This document shows positions 9,776 to 60,900 of a DNA stretch of 64,000 bases, one piece after another (the stretch's first letter is position 1; every line of letters begins with the position of its first letter). The translations under genes and the position numbers were made by a program. This DNA is from Mesocentrotus franciscanus (lineage: Eukaryota; Echinodermata; Echinoidea; Camarodonta; Strongylocentrotidae): contig CP137668.1 in the NCBI GenBank assembly GCA_037976565.1, positions 19,985,804 through 20,049,803 on the forward strand, written 5' to 3'. The notes beneath the pieces are model-generated. The model was not told the DNA's origin, searched no databases, and was given only the letters and a program-made list of their open reading frames with translations.

Positions 9776-10358
9776 TTAAAGGTACTATGTCCCATTGCAG
9801 GCCAACAAAAATGAAAAGGTTAAAGCCCCACTGTATTACTTGTAGCTACTTGCTCCCTCTATATAGAAAACAATGCCTAAGCGGTGCCTGTTGGTCCCCC
9901 ATGATCCTCTTTTTCTTATGTTAATTGAGAGCTGAGTTGATGAGATAACCACCTGTCAGTGACCACGCTAATCCCTGTAATCCCTCCTGGCCAAACTAGT
10001 GCAGAGGGGCTTTAAATTCCAATGGCATTTGAAAGATAATACTGATTTAGAACTTCCTTCAAAACGAAAGGGCTGGAAAATGTCTTTTGTGGGAAAATAA
10101 CGACCATTAGTTGTATGCTGCATGTACCTGTTACAGCTCATTTTATGTATGTTATTACCAAAGAAAAAAAGATGGCAGTCAGTCACTCAATAGTGTCTGA
10201 CAGGGAAGTCTATAAAGTAAACGGGTTTCCTTGCATAATTTGAATAGGACACTGCTAACGTTTAAATTTCACAGATAGGACATACATGACATATTCATAA
10301 TTCCTGTAAAGTTTTACAGAATTTGATGTTTGCTGCAAAAGGGACATAGTGTCTTTAA
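9776..10358. mobile_element. TTAA-flanked MITE, family A, copy 1 (variant interior)
   Basis: Termini AAAGGTACTATGTCCC and GGGACATAGTGTCTTT with TTAA on both sides. The left third differs from the other copies (ccccactgtattacttgtag), while the right half (cattttatgtatgttattac, then tagtgtctgacagggaagtc) matches, so it is a subfamily or a recombinant. Confidence 0.8.
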
Positions 10359-12329: not shown

Positions 12330-12656
12330 GCACACTTTCTACTTGTTACCGGGTACAGCATATTTAAAATCCGTTCTTTAGTTTGAGCTTTATTTTCAGC
12401 ACAAATACAGCGTTTTAAAGACTTAAGATTACATGTATGTTAATTTGGTTCGCGTGCTGGTCTTTTGAAAGAGCGAAGCCGAGATTGGGTATACATTATA
12501 GTTTATTGTTTATTAATTTTTAACTTGTAACGATTTTAGTCTCACAGTTCTTCAGAATATTCCTTTCAAAGTAGCACATGTACATGTAGACTCTAAGTTA
12601 ACAACTTACATTTTCTCTGTCTTCCAGGTGATATTCTTTCTGAGTGAAACTCTGCT
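12330..12656. repeat. Diverged partial duplicate of 13,930-14,200
   Basis: Shared order of landmarks: actttctacttgttac / actttctgcttgttac, then gcacaaatacagcgttttaaa / gcacaaaaatacaatgtg, then gagcgaagccgag / gagcgatgccgag, then ttctttctgagtgaaactc / ttccgtctgagtggaagtc. MITE copy 2 is inserted at its right end. Confidence 0.55.
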
Positions 12657-13191
12657 TTAAAGGTACTATGTCCCATTTGCAGGCAAAAAAATGAAAAGGT
12701 TAAATTCCAACGGCATTTGAAAGACAATACTAATTTAGAACTTCCCTAAAAAAAAGGTGGCTTGAAAATGTCTGTAAGTGGGAAAATAACGACTATTAGT
12801 TGTCGAATCGACTTAGGAGCTATAGAGCCAGGAAGTAATAGTCTGATTTTTCAGACCATTGTACCGAATGGTCATATTTATGCTGCGCAAAGATTCAAAT
12901 AGTTTAATTTTGGCCATTACAAGAAGTGGGTTATTGATGTAGACAAATGCTCATATACCCTTTACAGCTCATTTTATGTATGTTATTACCAAAGATGAAA
13001 AAAGCCAGTCAGTCACTCAATAGTGTCTGACAGTGAAGTCTAGCAAGTACACAGGTTTCCTTGCATAATTTGAATATTAGGACACTGCTAACGTTTAAAT
13101 TTCACAGATAGGACATAGTATGACATATTCATAATTCCTGCAAAGTTCTACAGAATTTGATGTTGGCTGCAAAGGGACATAGTATCTTTAA
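12657..13191. mobile_element. TTAA-flanked MITE, family A, copy 2
   Basis: Same termini as the copy at 56563, with TTAA at 12657-12660 and 13188-13191, length 535. The interior is nearly identical to copy 4 and has no coding capacity. Confidence 0.85.
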
Positions 13192-14129: not shown

Positions 14130-14875
14130 TTTCTTGTTTTCACTTGTCTTTGGAATATTCTTCTTTTTTCCGTCTGAGTGGAAGTCCGGTTTAAGTCTTC
14201 GGAAGAGAAAGCTCATTCCTTTCCTCTTTTTGTTTAATACTTTGCATTCCTTTTCTTTTCTTTTTGAGTGGAACTCCGGTTTAAGTCTTCGGACCAGAAA
14301 CAGAGAAAGCTCATTCCTTTCCTCTTTTTTATACTTTGCATTCCTTTTCTTTTCTTTTTGAGTGGAACTCCGGTTTAAGTCTTCGGACCAGAAACAGAGA
14401 AAGCTCATTCCTTTCCTCTTTTTTTTATACTTTGCATTCCTTTTCTTTTCTTTTTGAGTGGAACTCCGGTTTAAGTCTTCGGACCAGAAACAGAGAAAGC
14501 TCATTCCTTTCCTCTTTTTTATACTTTGCATTCCTTTTCTTTTCTTTTTGAGTGGAACTCCGGTTTAAGTCTTCGGACCAGAAACAGAGAAAGCTCATTC
14601 CTTTCCTCTTTTTTTTTATACTTTGCATTCCTTTTCTTTTCTTTTTGAGTAGAACTCCGGTTTAAGTCTTGGACCAGAAACAGAGAAAGCTCATTCCTTT
14701 CCTCTTTTAAAAAAAATTTTCTTTCATTTTCTTTTCTTTTTGAGTGGAACTCCGGTTTAAGTCTTCGGATCAGAAACAGAGAAAGCTCATTCCTTTCCTC
14801 CTTTTTTAAAACTTTGCTTTCATTTTCTTTTCTTTTTGAGTGGAACTCCACTGTAAGACTGTGGACCGGAAACAG
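14130..14875. repeat. Pyrimidine-rich minisatellite, eight units of 91-96 bp
   Basis: The word gagtgga(a)ctccgg recurs at 14175, 14266, 14360, 14456, 14550, 14646, 14742 and 14838. Each unit is a long C/T tract ending in TTTTTGAG followed by tggaactccggtttaagtct. Open frames across it simply translate the repeat. Confidence 0.93.
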
Positions 14876-15756
14876 AGACTGAAATAGATCATTTCTTTCC
14901 CTTCTTTAAAATCTTTGGAATCAAACATGTAGGCCAATAGAAGTAAATAGAAGATAAATAGCTCATATTTTATTAAAAGAATGTGGCGTGTGTGAGGTTG
15001 TGTGCGAGTTTTGTTACCCTTCAAAGTTGAGCGAGTGTTGGTTATTGACTGAACAGGACGAAATCTTTGTGGGGCCGGGGAGTCATAATTATGACAAGCA
15101 AGAAAAATAAACTATACATTTATTATCATTAGTTCACTGTAATCATGTATAAACACATGTATATCGCCTTATGGGTATAAAATTTGCAAGGAGGAAGAAA
15201 ACATTCTTTGTGTACCTATATGGAAGGCCTATATGTCACTATTTTCAAATAGGACGCAGGCTTGTTCTGTCCCCCACCCCTATCATTATCCACCGGATAG
15301 TTTGTTTACGGACAAATCTTGTGTTTAAAAACGATTTCAAGCTTATATCACATATTTTCAAAGCTACTTGACCCAAATCTAGAAATATAGAGTTTATATC
15401 CCTTACAATAAGTGGGCACTTTAACGCACTAAATTGCGACCCCACCTTAAAATTCATCTTTACGAGTTGAAATGTGTGAAAGAGTTTATGACGAGAAGGG
15501 TTATATAAACCTTAAAAGTTCAAGTAACGCTATACTGAGTTATCCATGAAGGAATCACTGCTCTTTGGTTCTTCGAGCACTTCACAATGATAGGCATATA
15601 TTTGATGCAGAAATGATAGGTGGAGAATTATTTTAGCAAGTCAACGAAAGTTATACCCCCTCCCCGAAAAAAACTCACTGACAGCAAAAGAAAACACTTC
15701 CTCTACAGCAACAATAACAACAACAACTACCAATACTACTACTACTATAACTTCTG

Positions 15757-18170: not shown

Positions 18171-18785
18171 AGGACAATTACCCCCTGGGCAATCACCCCC
18201 CGGAAAATTACCCCCCGGAAAGCTACCCCCCAAGGACAATTACCCCGGAAAATTACCCCGGAGAATTACCCCCGAGGACAATAACCCCTAAGGACAATTA
18301 CCCCGGAAATTTACCCCCGGAGAATTACCCCCGAGGACAATTACCCCCAAGGACAATTACCCCGGAAATTTACCCCGGAAAACTACCCCCGAGGACAACT
18401 ACCCCGAGGACAATTACCCCCGAGGACAATTACCCCCGAGGACAATTACCCCCGAGGACAATTACCCCCAAGGACAATTACCCCGGAAAACTACCCCCGA
18501 GGACAACTACCCCGAGGACAATTACCCCGAGGACAATTACCCCCGAGGACAATTACCCCCGAGGACAATTACCCCCAAGGACAATTACCCCGGAAAACTA
18601 CCCCCGAGGACAACTACCCCGAGGACAATTACCCCGAGGACAATTACCCCCAAGGACAATTACCCCGGAAAACAACCCCGAGGACAATTACCCCGGAAAA
18701 CTACCCCTGAGGAATTACCCCCGAGGACAATTACCCGCCCCCATGGATAACTACGCCTGAGGACAACTACCCCGAAGACAATCAG
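18171..18785. repeat. GGACAATTACCCC(C)GA minisatellite, forward orientation
   Basis: About 36 units of 15-17 bases alternate between ggacaattaccccc- and ggaaaactacccc-type variants. The left end starts taggacaattaccccctggg, then caatcacccc; the right end is gacaatcaggattc. Confidence 0.95.
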
Positions 18786-22499: not shown

Positions 22500-23855
22500 T
22501 GACTAGTGAGGTTACACTCCGAGCCAGCATGTTTATTAAGGGAAAAACATACAATCACACAAACACACAAACAAGAGAGGAATAGTCACATTTCAAAGGT
22601 GATGTAAATGAGTACCTGGTAGGAATTAATTCGTTGAAATGCTAGAGCGCCGCAGTGGCCGCCTTGCTAAAGCAAGGGTAATAATCGGGGCAGCGCCAGG
22701 AGCGTCACAACGTGACAGACATGTCCGCTATATAAGAAGCCACCATTATTAATATTATTATGAAGTAATGGATGGAGGTCAACGACCTTCTGAAAAACAT
22801 TGTTCTACAATAAAGGAAGCAATGACATACATTTTAGGAATAAACATGGTTATTTTGTCTTTAATTTGTGCACAGTCAAACATGACATATAGGTCCAATA
22901 TGATAAAAGTAACTGACAAGATATACCAAGTTTAATTTCTGTCAATATTAAATGAAATAGAGATATTAAGATTTGTTTTTGTTGTTAATGTTATTTTTTG
23001 TTCATTTTCGCTGACCTGAAGTTAGAATTGTGATTATTTTGTTCTTTAACTTGTGATCAGTCATACATGAACTAACGGATGTTAAGCAGGGTAACAGGAG
23101 GTCATCGATGGGTGTGCATGGTGTTCGCATTCAGAGCTGACAAATCATCAATTTGACAGTCTCACTACAATTAAGCAAAGGCATTAATGTAGCTAATTTT
23201 CCAAATTTTGTCTTTAAAGATAGTATCACACATTTGCAAGCCCTCAAAATCTCGATGAGATTTTTCTGCAGATGGCTTGTGATATGCAATACAATTTTTG
23301 AACAATACTCTGAAAGATTTAGAGCTCAACCCCTTCCAGTTATGAAGTAGGAAACAAAAATGTAATCAATTATTTTCTTTTATTTTCCTCATTTTCTATT
23401 ACGGCGTCTACCAGACGCTTTAAGAAGGAAAATATTAAAATTGTCATTAATAATATTTTCAGTAATAATAATGACATTACATTATCGATAACATTGTGGC
23501 GTATCCGCACTCCTCTCCAATTTGCTCAGAAAATGTAATCAACTTAATTCTCTTCGTTGTTGATGACGGAATAGATTTCTTCCATACAAGGATTGGATAG
23601 GAAAACACATTTGAAATAGTATATTTAGGGTGCATGTATAACTGAAAATTTTGTCTAAGGAAAATAAAGATTTCTGATTTTTAGTACAGAGTAGAAGGGA
23701 GGAGTTTGCAACTTAAACAAAATAAAATCTTATCTTTAATCGGAATTCATTTAAACTTTCACCGACCCATTCCTCTCATTTACCTGCTTGATTAAGTATG
23801 ACTGGCTACTTCTGGTTTCCACACAAATATTTCTGTAAAAGCACAGATACAATCC
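22500..23855. other. No gene seen
   Basis: Unremarkable AT-rich sequence; a short frame at 23153 has no domain. Confidence 0.5.
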
Positions 23856-23857
23856 TG

Positions 23858-24389
23858 TTAAAAGTACTATTCCCATTTGCAGGCCAAAAAATGAAAAGGT
23901 TAAATTCCAACGGCATTTGAAAGATAATACTAATTTAGAACTCTCCTAAAAACGGGGTTTGAAAATGTCTTTAAGTGGGAAAATAACAAATATTAGTTGT
24001 CGAATCGACTTAAGAGCTATAGAGCCAGTAAGTAACAGTCTGATTTTCAGACCATTGTACCGAATGGTCCGAACGTTTTAAGCTGCGCAGTGATTCAATC
24101 AGTTTAATTTGGCCATTACAAGAAGTGGGTTATTGATGTAGGCAAATGCTTATGTACCCTTTACAGCTCATTTTATATATGTTATTACCAAAGAAGAAAA
24201 AAGGCCAGTCAGTCACTCAATAGTGTCTGACGGTGAAGTCTAGCAAGTAAACGGGTTTCCTTGCATAATTTGAATATTAGGACACTGCTAACGTTTATAT
24301 TTCACAGATAGGACATACATGACATATTCATAATTCCTACAAAGTTCGACAGCATTAGATGTTTGCTGCAAAAGGACATAGTATCTTTA
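23858..24389. mobile_element. TTAA-flanked MITE, family A, copy 3 (degraded ends)
   Basis: Interior clearly homologous to copies 2 and 4. The left terminus is TTAAAAGTACTATTCCC and the right terminus AAGGACATAGTATCTTTAC, so both have mutated and TTAA is lost on the right. A family B element lies directly against its right end. Confidence 0.8.
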
Positions 24390-30689: not shown

Positions 30690-30830
30690 TGTTTATACAC
30701 AACCCCTGTACGAAACAAATCTATGCCGTCATAAATAACTAAGAAAATGAAAGTTCATGACATTTTCTCTAAATAGCAATTTGAAGCGGAGCTCGCATTA
30801 TACGTCACAGTGTTGCAAATTCCTGGGTGT
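30690..30830. repeat. Dispersed repeat, family C
   Basis: acaacccctgtacgaaacaa, atctatgccgtcataaataa and attatacgtcacagtgttgc match 60770-60890 (ccctgtatgaaacaaatcta; gatacatcacagcgttgtc). Confidence 0.7.
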
Positions 30831-31333
30831 GATTGTCCTCGGAGGTAATGGTGTTTCGAGGGGGTAATTGTCCTCGGGGGGTAGTTGTCCTCGGGGGTAG
30901 TTTTCCGGGGTAGTTGTCCTCGGGGGTAATTGTCCTCGGGGGTAGTTGTCCATGGGGGTAATTGTCCTGGGGGTAGTTGTCCTCGGGGGTAGTTGTCCTC
31001 GGGGGTAGTTGTCCTAGGGGGTAGTTGTCCTAGGGGGTAGTTGTCCTCGGGGGTAGTTTTCCGGGGGTAGATGTCCTAGGGGGTAATTGTCCTCGGGGTA
31101 GTTGTCCTCGGGGGTAGTTTTCCGGGGTAAATTTCCGGGGTAATTGTCCTTGGGGGTAATTGTCCTCGGGGTAATTCTCCGGGGTAATTTTCCGGGGTAA
31201 TTGTCCATGGGGGTAATTGTCCTCGGGGGGTAATTCTCCGGGGGGTAATTTTCCAGGGGGTAATTGTCCTTGGGGGTAGTTTTCCGGGGGTAATTTTCCG
31301 GGGTGATTGCCCAGGGGGTAATTGTCCTGATAC
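30830..31333. repeat. Same minisatellite in reverse orientation
   Basis: About 30 units of cctcgggggtaattgt-type, the reverse complement of the 18.2 kb array. Its right end, read in reverse, starts aggacaattaccccctgggc, then aatcacccc, so the first variant units appear in the same order as at 18171. Confidence 0.95.
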
Positions 31334-54707: not shown

Positions 54708-54949
54708 CAGCTTCCATCAGTAGTCTTGCCAAGTCTCCTCTGTATCGTCTTCTGTCTGCGTTCTTCCTTCTCCTTCTCTGCTATCTCCTTCCTTCTGTCT
54801 CTCCGTTCAAGGATTTTTGTGATGGCATGGGACACGTTTCCAGTGGCTGCTCTCAGTCCTAGCCTAGCCTCGGACATCTCGTACCCCATGGACATTAGCT
54901 GCATCAGTTTAGTTTCATCCACCTGCAGGGAATTGAGTACCCTCTCTGC
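54708..54949 (-). CDS. NUB1: NUB1 exon: UBA domain
   Basis: Starts AERVLNSLQVDETKLMQL and contains MGYEMSEARLGLRAATGNVS, a canonical UBA with the MGY loop and the 'A..AL/GLRA..GNV..A' second helix. A long basic/acidic helix (RRKEIAEKEKEERRQK) follows. It exits in phase 2 through CTG|GTGAGT. The next exon is not identified with confidence: an open 44-base candidate ends at a CAG|GTAAGC donor near 54149-54192 but shows no convincing NUB1 motif. Confidence 0.9.
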
Positions 54950-57900
54950 CTGTAAATATAAGAGCTTATAACATTCCTAATATGGCTATGGGAATCCTAA
55001 TCAAATGACTGGCTGATCGAGAGAGGCACAATGAAGCAGTGCATGTACATATTTGTGCCTCTAGACAACCTCTACAGCTTCCAAAACTGCAATAAATATG
55101 GATTGGTTGACACAATGGATCACCACAAGACACTCATAAAAACTCACTGAGCATTACATTTTGATAAAATAATTTTTCAGATACGTCATACTTAACTATC
55201 AAATACCAAGAATCTACACATCTACATTGTATAAAACAAACATCAGATTGCTCTTTTTGAGAAAAGAATACATTGCTACACTCAGTAATATCAAAATGGT
55301 CCAAAGACCATGCTATTTGTGCTGCAGGCTTGAGATGATTCCGAAGTTTACCAATGTGTTAATTTCATGTAATACACTCTGCACAATAATTGCCTGCCTT
55401 TAGGAGGTGATCTAACATTTCGCTCCAGTTTCCATGACATGAAATGAATAGCATTAGAGTTTGGGTTATGATTGGATTGAAGTTGGGTTTAGGTAGGGTA
55501 AATTTATAATGATGGGTCCAGAAGTGAAGTTGGGAAACTTCCTCGTGTTATTATGGAGGAGTTGTATGTCATACAATCATTTAGATATATTGCCTAAGCT
55601 AAAGCCAAAAGTAATATATCTGTTCAGTGTATTGAAGTCAACTTTTGTTGTCTCTAATGTTCAACCTACTAGAAATTGACAACAAAAACATACCTTTTCA
55701 AGAAGGTTCTTTCCCCTTCTTAAGTCATTTTGCAGGACAGCAACAATTCCCTGGAAGTAGAATAGATAAAACATGATTCCTTCAAATCAGAAATAAATGT
55801 CAAATAATATATATGTACAAATGAACAATATATATCACGGCATTATACATACCCGGTACATACAAGATTTTGTAATCCAACTGCTCAAAACCACCAATAT
55901 GGTAAGGTAGAGAATGACTTAGTAAATATTGCTCTGCATTAAACAATTTTTAAAAAGCCAACAAACATGTTACATGTAATACACATATTGGGAAAAGGCT
56001 GACTTATAAAGATGTATCATAAAGAAGTTGAAATATTTAGATACCTCTGAATAGCATCTTCTATGGCAGGCCAGTCTTGCATGTATTTCTTTTCCTTTTA
56101 TTTCTTTTTTCTAATTTTAAGACTCAATCAAGAGTGATCTGTCCCAACAGCAGGTTTAGTGACCCTCTCATTTTCTAAAACAATGTATTTCTTTTCCTTT
56201 TATTTCTTTTTTCCACTTTGAAGACTCAATCAAGAGTGATATATCCCAACGGCAGGTTCAGTGACCCTCTCATTTTCTAAAACAATTGTCTCTCTAAAGT
56301 ATTTCAATCTTGAGCAAACCGCTTCACTTTACCATATATCCTACTCCACCACACTTTGGAAGAAGATCATCCAGGAAGGATTTTCTAAGGTTTCGTCCCG
56401 TGTTTCCTTTCCCTTCAGATGACCTTCACTGACTCTCTATTAGAAAGCCATTCAAGAATACTGCAACAAAAGTTTGTTTGCTATTTCCATAGCTCACCTG
56501 TAATAAGTAGAGCCTAACGTTAAAGCATTAAGTGCTACATGTAACTCTCCTTTACATGCCTTTTAAAGGTACTATGTCCCATTTGTTGTCCAAAAAAATG
56601 AAAAGGTTAAATTCCAACGGCATTTGAAAGACAATACTAATTTAGAACTTCCCTAAAAAAAGGGGGGCTTGAAAATGTCTTTAAGTGGGAAAATAACGAC
56701 TATTAGTTGTCGAATCGACTTAGGAGCTATAGAGCCAGTAAGTAATAGTCTGATTTTTCAGACCATTGTACCGAATGGTTGTACGTTTTATGCTGCGCAA
56801 AGATTCAATCAGTTTAATTTTGGCCATTACAAGAAGTGGGTTATTGATGTAGACAAATGCTCATGTACCCTTTACAGCTCATTTTATGTATGTTATTACC
56901 AAAGATGAAAAAAGCCAGTCAGTCACTCAATAGTGTCTGACAGTGAAGTCTAGCAAGTAAACGGGTTTCCTTGCATAATTTGAATATTAGGACACTGCTA
57001 ACGTTTAAATTTCACAGATAGGACATACATGACATATTCATAATTCCTGCAAAGTTCTACAGAATTTGATGTTGGCTGAAAAGGGACATAGTATCTTTAA
57101 AGGCTCATTCAGGTATGAAACTTTAATTAAACTGCGGCATTAAAACAAAAAAAATTAATGAATGGCAACTGCATGCAAAAAATGTCCTATGCATATTCAC
57201 TGAGCTCTGCATTATAAGATACAGAAATGTGAAGCGTATTACACAGACATCATTGTTTAAAAAAATGCATCGGTCAATAACCTCATATCCACCTCGTATC
57301 TGAACAAGACTACTGCTAACAAAAGTTTGATTGGTATTTTGATATAGCTTAACCTGTAGGAAATAGAACCTCACATTATAGTTATATCGACTGCTACGAG
57401 AGGACTAGCTGTTTCTATACGCTCAAGGGATAGTTGAATCCCCTGCTATCACCCCGAGGCGCGCAGGTGATGCAGGGATTCAACTATCCCGCGAGCCAGT
57501 ACAGAAACAGCTAGTCCTCGAGTATTAAAGCAGTCGATATGACTTTTATATGCCGAATTATAACAAAAATCTACCAAGAATTCTTACCTCAGCCTTTTAG
57601 TGAGTAAAAATTTGTTAAAACATCACAGAAAATCTGAAACACTGTCTGTTAATCTTTGCTTAAAAATGAGTGAAAGTTTCAATCATTTGGGAATCGCAAG
57701 AGCACTGTATGGCGTCCGTGCTCGCACGTAGACAATTTTAACACGCAAACCAATGGGGTTCGCAGTAAACCAATGGGAATCGCAGGATCGGAGGGTAGAA
57801 AATTTTAACTAGGCCCTGTGTATGGCGTGCCGTTTGACCAATAATTCAGATAAACACTGTTTTTCGGTGATAAACAGTGTTTATCGAGATAAACTATGTT

Positions 57901-60900
57901 TATCGCCTGATAAACACAGTTTCTCTCGATAAACACTGTTTATCAGCGATAAACACTGTTTTTCGGCGATAAACATTGTTTATCGAGAGAAACTGTGTTT
58001 ATCAGTCGATAAACAGTGTTTATCTGATTTATTGGTCAAACGGCGCGCCATGTGGGCTATTGCTATGCCCTGTGAGTTGGGCATGGCTTGAAATCACGAC
58101 TCCAATTTTGATCAATCAGATGGCTAGATTTCTAAAGTGAGGTACATAAAGTGCTAACCTTCTATTGTTATCTACGTACAACGCCCTAAGACTACTGCTA
58201 ATAAAAGTTTGATGACTAGTTCCATAGCTTACCTGTAGTAAATAGAGCCTCACATAAAGTGCTAACCTTCTATTGTTATCTACTTACAACGCCCTAAGAC
58301 TACTGCTAATCAAAGTTTGATGACTAGTTCCATAGCTTACCTGTAGTAAATAGAGCCTCACATAAAGTGCTAACCTTCTACTGTTATCTACTTACAACGC
58401 CCTAAGACTACTGCTAATCAAAGTTTGATGACTAGTTCCATAGCTTACCTGTAGTAAGTAGAGCCTCACATAAAGTGCTAACCTTCTACTGTTATCTACT
58501 TACAATGCCCTAAGACTACTGCTAATCAAAGTTTGATGACTAGTTCCATAGCTTACCTGTAGTAAATAGAGCCTCACATAAAGTGCTAACCTTCTACTGT
58601 TATCTACTTACAATGCCCTAAGACTACTGCTAATAAAAGTTTGATGACTAGTTCCATAGCTTACCTGTAGTAAGTAGAGCCTCACATAAAGTGCTAACCT
58701 TCTACTGTTATCTACTTACAACGCCCTAAGACTACTGCTAATCAAAGTTTGATGACTAGTTCCATAGCTTACCTGTAGTAAATAGAGCCTCACATAAAGT
58801 GCTAACCTTCTATTGTTATCTACTTACAACGCCCTAAGACTACTGCTAATCAAAGTTTGATGACTAGTTCCATAGCTTACCTGTAGTAAGTAGAGCCTCA
58901 CATAAAGTGCTAACCTTCTACTGTTATCTACTTACAACGCCCTAAGACTACTGCTAATCAAAGTTTGATGACTAGTTCCATAGCTTACCTGTAGTAAATA
59001 GAGCCTCACATAAAGTGCTAACCTTCTACTGTTATCTACTTACAACGCCCTAAGACTACTGCTAATCAAAGTTTGATGACTAGTTCCATAGCTTACCTGT
59101 AGTAAGTAGAGCCTCACATAAAGTGCTAACCTTCTACTGTTATCTACTTACAACGCCCTAAGACTACTGCTAATCAAAGTTTGATGACTAGTTCCATAGC
59201 TTACCTGTAGTAAGTAGAGCCTCACATAAAGTGCTAACCTTCTACTGTTATCTACTTACAACGCCCTAAGACTACTGCTAATCAAAGTTTGATGACTAGT
59301 TCCATAGCTTACCTGTAGTAAGTAGAGCCTCACATAAAGTGCTAACCTTCTACTGTTATCTACTTACAACGCCCTAAGACTACTGCTAATCAAAGTTTGA
59401 TGACTAGTTCCATAGCTTACCTGTAGTAAGTAGAGCCTCACATAAAGTGCTAACCTTCTACTGTTATCTACTTACAACGCCCTAAGACTACTGCTAATCA
59501 AAGTTTGATGACTAGTTCCATAGCTTACCTGTAGTAAGTAGAGCCTCACATAAAGTGCTAACCTTCTACTGTTATCTACTTACAACGCCCTAAGACTACT
59601 GCTAATCAAAGTTTGATGACTAGTTCCATAGCTTACCTGTAGTAAGTAGAGCCTCACATAAAGTGCTAACCTTCTACTGTTATCTACTAACAACGCCCTA
59701 AGACTACTGCTAATCAAAGTTTGATGACTAGTTCCATAGCTTACCTGTAGTAAGTAGAGCCTCACATAAAGTGCTAACCTTCTACTGTTATCTACTTACA
59801 ACGCCCTAAGACTACTGCTAATCAAAGTTTGATGACTAGTTCCATAGCTTACCTGTAGTAAGTAGAGCCTCACATAAAGTGCTAACCTTCTATTGTTATC
59901 TACTTACAACGCCCTAAGACTACTGCTAATCAAAGTTTGATGACTAGTTCCATAGCTTACCTGTAGTAAATAGAGCCTCACATAAAGTGCTAACCTTCTA
60001 CTGTTATCTACTTACAACGCCCTAAGACTACTGCTAATCAAAGTTTGATGACTAGTTCCATAGCTTACCTGTAGGAAATAGAACCTCACATAAAGTGCTA
60101 ACCTTCTACTGTTATCTACTTACAACGCCCTAAGACTACTGCTAATCAAAGTTTGATGACTAGTTCCATAGCTTACCTGTAGTAAGTAGAGCCTCACATA
60201 AAGTGCTAACCTTCTATTGTTATCTACTTACAATGCCCTAAGACTACTGCTAATCAAAGTTTGATGACTAGTTCCATAGCTTACCTGTAGTAAGTAGAGC
60301 CTCACATAAAGTGCCAACTCTCTGCTATTGTCACCTTTCAATGCCATCAATCTCTCCATATTTGCTCCATAGCTACGGTTGAAGCATTCCTCACACATCC
60401 TCAGTCTAGACTCTTGTATGGATATGGGCAAAAAACAAATCAGATCATAAAATAAGATTTAACCCTTTCTGTACAATTACTAAGTTTATCGCAAGTTGTT
60501 ATATCTCTCTAGAGTAAGACTTTTGCATCTAATTTCTCTGGTCCACTGTAGAATTGAATATGAAATATCACACATGAGAAGAAAACTTCATAATACATTT
60601 ACCTGTCTCTAGCACAGAAAGATTGCTATTTTCAGGCAAAATATATAATTCACTGTGCAAATTCTATTGACATTTTACATTCACATTATTACAATTATAT
60701 CTAAAAGAAAAATATCTGAGGCAGTATTCTGAGATTCATTTTATCTCAGTGATTGCAAATACGTTTTTTAAAACCCTGTATGAAACAAATCTATTCCGTC
60801 ATCAATAACAAAGAAAATGAAATTTTATTAAATTTTCTGTGCAGAGCAAATTAGAGAGGAGCTTGCATGATACATCACAGCGTTGTCAATTTGTGTTTCA

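Follow-up and report, generated by a model that had tools for sequence, protein, structure and literature searches.

A NUB1 exon-intron junction repeated with its splice donor as a 108-bp minisatellite in a sea urchin intron

The minus strand of the analyzed 64,000-nucleotide stretch of Mesocentrotus franciscanus DNA (the window; contig CP137668.1) encodes NUB1, and one intron of this gene opens with a tandem array of 108-bp units in which the end of the preceding coding exon (E5), its splice donor and the start of the intron are repeated together (Table 1). The native junction forms the first unit and is followed by 19 decoy donors of the same sequence. We propose, as a fairly probable reading, that this is a near-neutral minisatellite born from its own splice junction, in which the exon-most donor remains dominant and a small leak leads to transcripts with a premature stop.

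Table 1. Features of the NUB1 locus and the array, in window coordinates
Feature	Position	Strand	Remarks
NUB1 exon E5	60285..60412	-	128 nt, ends ...LYLLQ/; acceptor AAG before, donor GTAAGC after
NUB1 intron with array	55751..60284	-	4534 nt, GTAAGC...TTCCAG
108-bp tandem array	58144..60318	-	TRF; 20 donor-bearing units
First in-frame TAA if the native donor is passed	60228..60230	-	18 codons into the intron
Relic unit 57k	57306..57397	-	76% to unit; 83% over 71 bases; donor now CAG/GTTAAG
Relic unit 56k	56422..56552	-	76-78% to unit (blastn); donor CAG/GTGAGC
NUB1 exon E6 (next)	55694..55750	-	57 nt, in frame: GIVAVLQNDLRRGKNLLEK
NUB1 exon E7, with first UBA domain	54708..54949	-	Limits by eye from sequence

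The NUB1 gene and the anatomy of the array

The joined translation of E5, E6 and E7 is 143 residues long and matches human NUB1 with E = 5.6e-25 over its residues 1-131. The human protein is continuous over the exon-exon junction (VRLYLLQ/GIVAV versus LRLYLLQ/GIRNY; slashes mark splice junctions throughout), which bears out both the assignment to a minus-strand NUB1 and the exon order given in an initial annotation of this DNA. The UBL, TPR-like and UBA regions are colinear with NUB1, and among named proteins the best matches are those of Lytechinus pictus, with 86% where 81% of the query is covered, and of Diadema antillarum, with 74%. Matches to the N-terminal and UBL parts are weak (E 0.08 to 3.6), yet colinear with P0001, a protein of 613 residues that is 96% identical; the upstream NUB1 exons and the N-terminus outside the window were placed through these partly weak matches and the colinearity with P0001. 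Given that the longest contig behind P0001 is 2,410 bases, against a gene that spans more than 10 kb here, P0001 is presumably a spliced cDNA, and sequence differences suggest that it comes from a close relative. It joins E5 to E6 normally (LLQ/GIV), with nothing in between. Another NUB1-like protein, of 364 residues from Lytechinus pictus (P0003), matches E6 and ends in LLEKVCT where the window reads LLEKVCF, an ending that would result from reading on past the E6 donor; it may represent a short isoform, or its gene model may be incomplete.

The anatomy of the array is plain in the assembled sequence. TRF finds a period of 108 bp with 20.1 copies, 98% match and 0% indels, and 20 CAGGTAAG sites lie exactly 108 nt apart in 58101-60500; head-to-tail units of about 100 bp with high identity are those of a minisatellite. 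Unit 1 is the native E5/intron junction, with donor CAG/GTAAGC and the first G of the intron at 60284, and the 19 decoys lie past it in 108-nt steps down to 58232. The array thus abuts the upstream exon from within the intron and holds the native donor in its first unit, which is the arrangement of an ABCA7-type VNTR. The initial annotation had described a roughly 20-fold repeat of an exon/intron junction, with CAG/GTAAGC in every unit and a period divisible by three, and all of this holds. Its span of 58145..60412 agrees with the array but not in its end, position 60412 being the 5' end of E5, and its division of the unit into 51 nt of exon and 57 nt of intron has to be revised: the unit's GGCGTTGTAAGTAGATAACAGTAGAAGGTTA pairs with GGCATTGAAAGGTGACAATAGCAGAGAGTTG of E5 in an ungapped alignment, just before the identical tail, and therefore the exon-derived part measures about 61 nt and the intron-derived part about 47 nt, with the last ~61 nt of E5 lying in unit 1.

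Any two of units 1-19 differ at a mean of 1.5 of 108 positions, and 32 of the 171 pairs show no difference; six successive units in mid-array equal the consensus, and variants are commoner toward the edges. When 456 array bases were searched against the 773-Mb genome (21 contigs; two candidate places scored), all seven matches fell in the NUB1 array intron, one of them extending into the exon; since the search missed relic unit 56k, diverged copies of the array elsewhere in the genome are possible. Rfam families gave no matches at gathering scores in the window, and among the literature matches listed we found neither a NUB1 array nor an array of about 20 copies of a coding exon end with its donor. 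Highly identical tandem arrays are prone to error in assemblies, by which the repeat could have been collapsed or inflated. An artefact of this sort is most improbable here: variants scattered among the units argue against simple assembly copying, the relic copies attest earlier repeats, and the contig is of chromosome scale (44 Mb).

Possible donor competition and predicted transcripts

Scored with generic donor weights, on an intron slice that lacked its two 3'-most bases, all 19 decoys equal the native donor (11.0). They also share its sequence, which bears out the roughly 19 near-identical donors of the initial annotation. The donor of relic unit 56k scores 10.8, and GAGGTAAGA at 57587, also in the array intron, 10.0. 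Decoys scoring like the native donor reach 8.9/kb in the array (19 in 2.14 kb), compared with 0.065/kb elsewhere on the window's minus strand; the GTAAGT core is also present in most units, and GTTGTAAGT or ATTGTAAGT occurs at 18 places of the array. Such a density could be read as a sink or shield, whereby the 19 strong donors recruit U1 snRNP and either compete with the true donor or block premature polyadenylation; consistent with the latter, the intron past the array contains five AATAAA/ATTAAA hexamers and the array none. This reading is very unlikely in our view, given that the donor density follows automatically when a junction is repeated, that titration of cellular U1 by one intron is hardly to be expected, and that five hexamers per 2.4 kb of AT-rich intron are, as we judge, unremarkable.

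Read on into the intron, E5 continues as VSYGTSHQTLISSSLRAL and meets a TAA at +55 to +57. Across the 20 units, the same position reads TAA in 18, TTA in a single unit and TAC in the truncated unit that closes the array. The TAA of unit 1 falls inside every decoy product, at least 51 nt before the junction used and with further exons downstream, and hence, of the 20 donors, only the first is predicted to give full-length NUB1. Rather than gaining whole 36-codon units, as had been claimed, translation would stop after 18 added codons, at the in-frame TAA that the same annotation had correctly placed after decoy use. Of nine candidate proteins, a search with the read-through tail returned three. 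Each aligns over the normal exon part, which makes up 72% of the 64-residue query, and none covers the tail; this is a weak negative. The candidates were proteins of up to ~600 residues, a range below the longer full-length NUB1 proteins.

We propose that the spliceosome most likely uses mainly the exon-most donor, which alone closes the normal short exon and is also transcribed first. Occasional use of a decoy would add 18 codons and a TAA, and the resulting transcript would probably be lost to nonsense-mediated decay (NMD). With the exon-most donor dominant and the rare decoy products removed by decay, the array could be tolerated as a near-neutral element, the leak in NUB1 output being small at most. 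The same features may be viewed as a length-dependent brake, in which the decoys divert pre-mRNA to forms with a premature termination codon (PTC) that undergo NMD, or the array promotes skipping of E6, and copy number sets the dose of NUB1. The decoys match the native donor in both sequence and score, every decoy product has a PTC upstream of a junction, and human NUB1 has an isoform of reduced activity that arises through the use of another donor in exon 12 (PMC3538075). Moreover, skipping of exon 19 in ABCA7 grows with VNTR length (p = 3.24e-13; PMC5954066), and given that a longer array there changed splicing by skipping of the next exon, near-neutrality may be the wrong view of the NUB1 array. 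The search among nine candidates found no protein with the read-through tail, which speaks against a brake, and we consider this reading rather unlikely.

Predicted local structure also speaks against the near-neutral reading, for it gives the native donor no advantage: with a modelled accessibility of 0.0006, this donor ranks below every one of the 19 decoys (0.0019-0.042). A 76-nt segment around the donor, picked by eye, folds at z = -3.65 (1/300 shuffles as low), as compared to -1.81 for the native context (13/300), -0.82 for the whole unit, -0.01 for relic 56k and -0.24 for relic 57k. Structure that hides the decoys was rejected as evidence in view of these other z values and of the accessibility, which fails to set the native donor apart; structure prediction leaves the preference for the first donor unexplained. 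Recursive splicing with zero-length exons was rejected as well: CAG/GTAAGC is preceded by GGCTCTACTTACTAC, with 10 pyrimidines in 15 (4 to 9 of 15 for the other 13 AGs of the unit), and this pyrimidine stretch is coding exon. With regard to intron gain, the E5-E6 join of P0001, whose source may or may not carry the array, has no insert, and the AG sites of the unit are at best putative acceptors. The 20 donors share one sequence, each has exon sequence upstream, and the surroundings of 19 are nearly the same as well; together they constitute a natural competing-donor experiment: it is mainly position that tells them apart, and junction counts per unit would measure the effect of position on choice.

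Relic units and the history of the array

Two diverged units persist in the same intron, and the relic at 57k has three variants in common with array unit 3 (GAGGTTCTATTTCC). Several other repeated sequences were noted around them and elsewhere in the window: 1) an element at 56553-57100, adjoining relic 56k, with copies 92-96% identical at 12656-13191, 23848-24389 and 10115-10358; 2) inverted-repeat (hairpin-like) elements in the array intron at 57372-57552 and 57822-58051, the second being a tandem palindrome with a unit of ~20 bp, GATAAACACTGTTTATCGC; 3) arrays of 16-bp units at 18171-18781 and 30821-31328, which are apparent reverse complements of one another (AGGACAATTACCCCCG versus TCCTCGGGGGTAATTG); 4) a further minisatellite at 14204-14878, with a 96-bp unit, 7.1 copies and 93% match.

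The simplest history that we infer for the NUB1 array is an old duplication of the junction, then decay and insertions, and then a young expansion. A segment of about 108 bp, with ~61 nt of exon end and ~47 nt of intron start, would have been tandemly duplicated in the intron; some copies would have decayed and been split apart by mobile-element insertions; and a newer block, headed by the native junction, would have expanded and been homogenized by unequal exchange. The presence of relic copies within the same intron fits local growth and decay, and the small mean difference between units, the consensus-identical middle and the variant edges are what unequal exchange would lead one to expect.

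A different origin would make the intron half of the unit a decayed copy of the upstream exon, the whole unit having once been an in-frame exon duplication of 36 codons. In frame, VSYGTSHQTL of the unit aligns both to RSYGANMERL in the exon and to YGENHQRLV in human NUB1, and with an exon slice short by 2 bases at its 3' and 14 at its 5' end the score was reached by 11/2000 and 0/2000 shuffles, though by 275/5000 when dinucleotides were shuffled. Both sequences contain AGCTATGGA (longest-word test, 425/20000), and an anchored alignment test with the full 128 nt speaks for this origin with relic 56k (39/6000) but against it with the array unit (560/6000) and relic 57k (3077/6000). The family profile scores the intron part at just 2.3 bits, and a plain 61+47 junction duplication, the intron starting with GTAAGCTATGG..., is simpler. 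With support thus mixed, we regard an exon origin of the intron half as unlikely.

Over the 60 nt compared, the end of E5 departs from the array at 10 positions; these fall entirely within the upstream 30 nt, and the 30 nt next to the donor are identical. Eight codons differ, five by synonymous and three by nonsynonymous changes, the latter including AAA to TAA. Given that 30 identical positions after a tract with one-third mismatches would otherwise be unlikely, recent exchange or recent copying is suggested, and the coding exon end appears, in this one assembly, to join in the homogenization of the array through exchange between the two. As the tandem repeat takes in the end of a coding exon, exchange could bring a stop codon into the gene. 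A further-reaching proposal of concerted evolution would have exchange overwrite the last ~30 coding nt, selection halt the tract before the nonsynonymous differences and the TAA, and array length set the share of NUB1 transcripts lost through decoys or E6 skipping; this we regard as doubtful.

Comparison with known systems

Minisatellites comprise head-to-tail units with a homogenized center, variant edges and decayed outliers. The NUB1 array is alike in this layout, and differs in its proposed origin from, and its inclusion of, a coding splice junction. The DDX3Y minisatellite is a promoter case and not a donor array (PMC3039753). The exon 12 donor of human NUB1, described as human-specific, yields the isoform of reduced activity mentioned above (PMC3538075) and offers only a parallel to the urchin array. 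Intron gain by tandem duplication (PMC4974935) is similar in that the duplicated segment runs across a splice junction and takes the splice signals along; however, there one duplication across an acceptor gave rise to a new spliced intron, whereas in NUB1 about 20 copies across a donor lie inside an intron that was already there, and nothing points to a new one.

In the human ABCA7 intron-18 VNTR, the exon's canonical donor coincides with the array's first GT, the 25 bp unit begins at that GT, and about 12 to about 427 units are found (PMC5954066). Splicing at the donor one unit further retains that unit, shifts the frame and introduces a PTC. This single-unit retention is among two frameshifting forms, which amount to 14 +/- 6 and 2 +/- 1%, independent of array length, and the PTC forms increase with cycloheximide (PMC5954066). 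The NUB1 array is likewise intronic, abuts its exon and has the native donor first. It differs in its 108 bp unit with ~61 nt of coding exon, in that all 20 of its donors are identical in sequence, and in that an extra unit keeps the frame but adds a stop (18/20 units), whereas the ABCA7 unit shifts the frame. Length polymorphism and splicing effects were measured for ABCA7; as a precedent, the ABCA7 case indicates that such arrays are tolerated, yet can matter.
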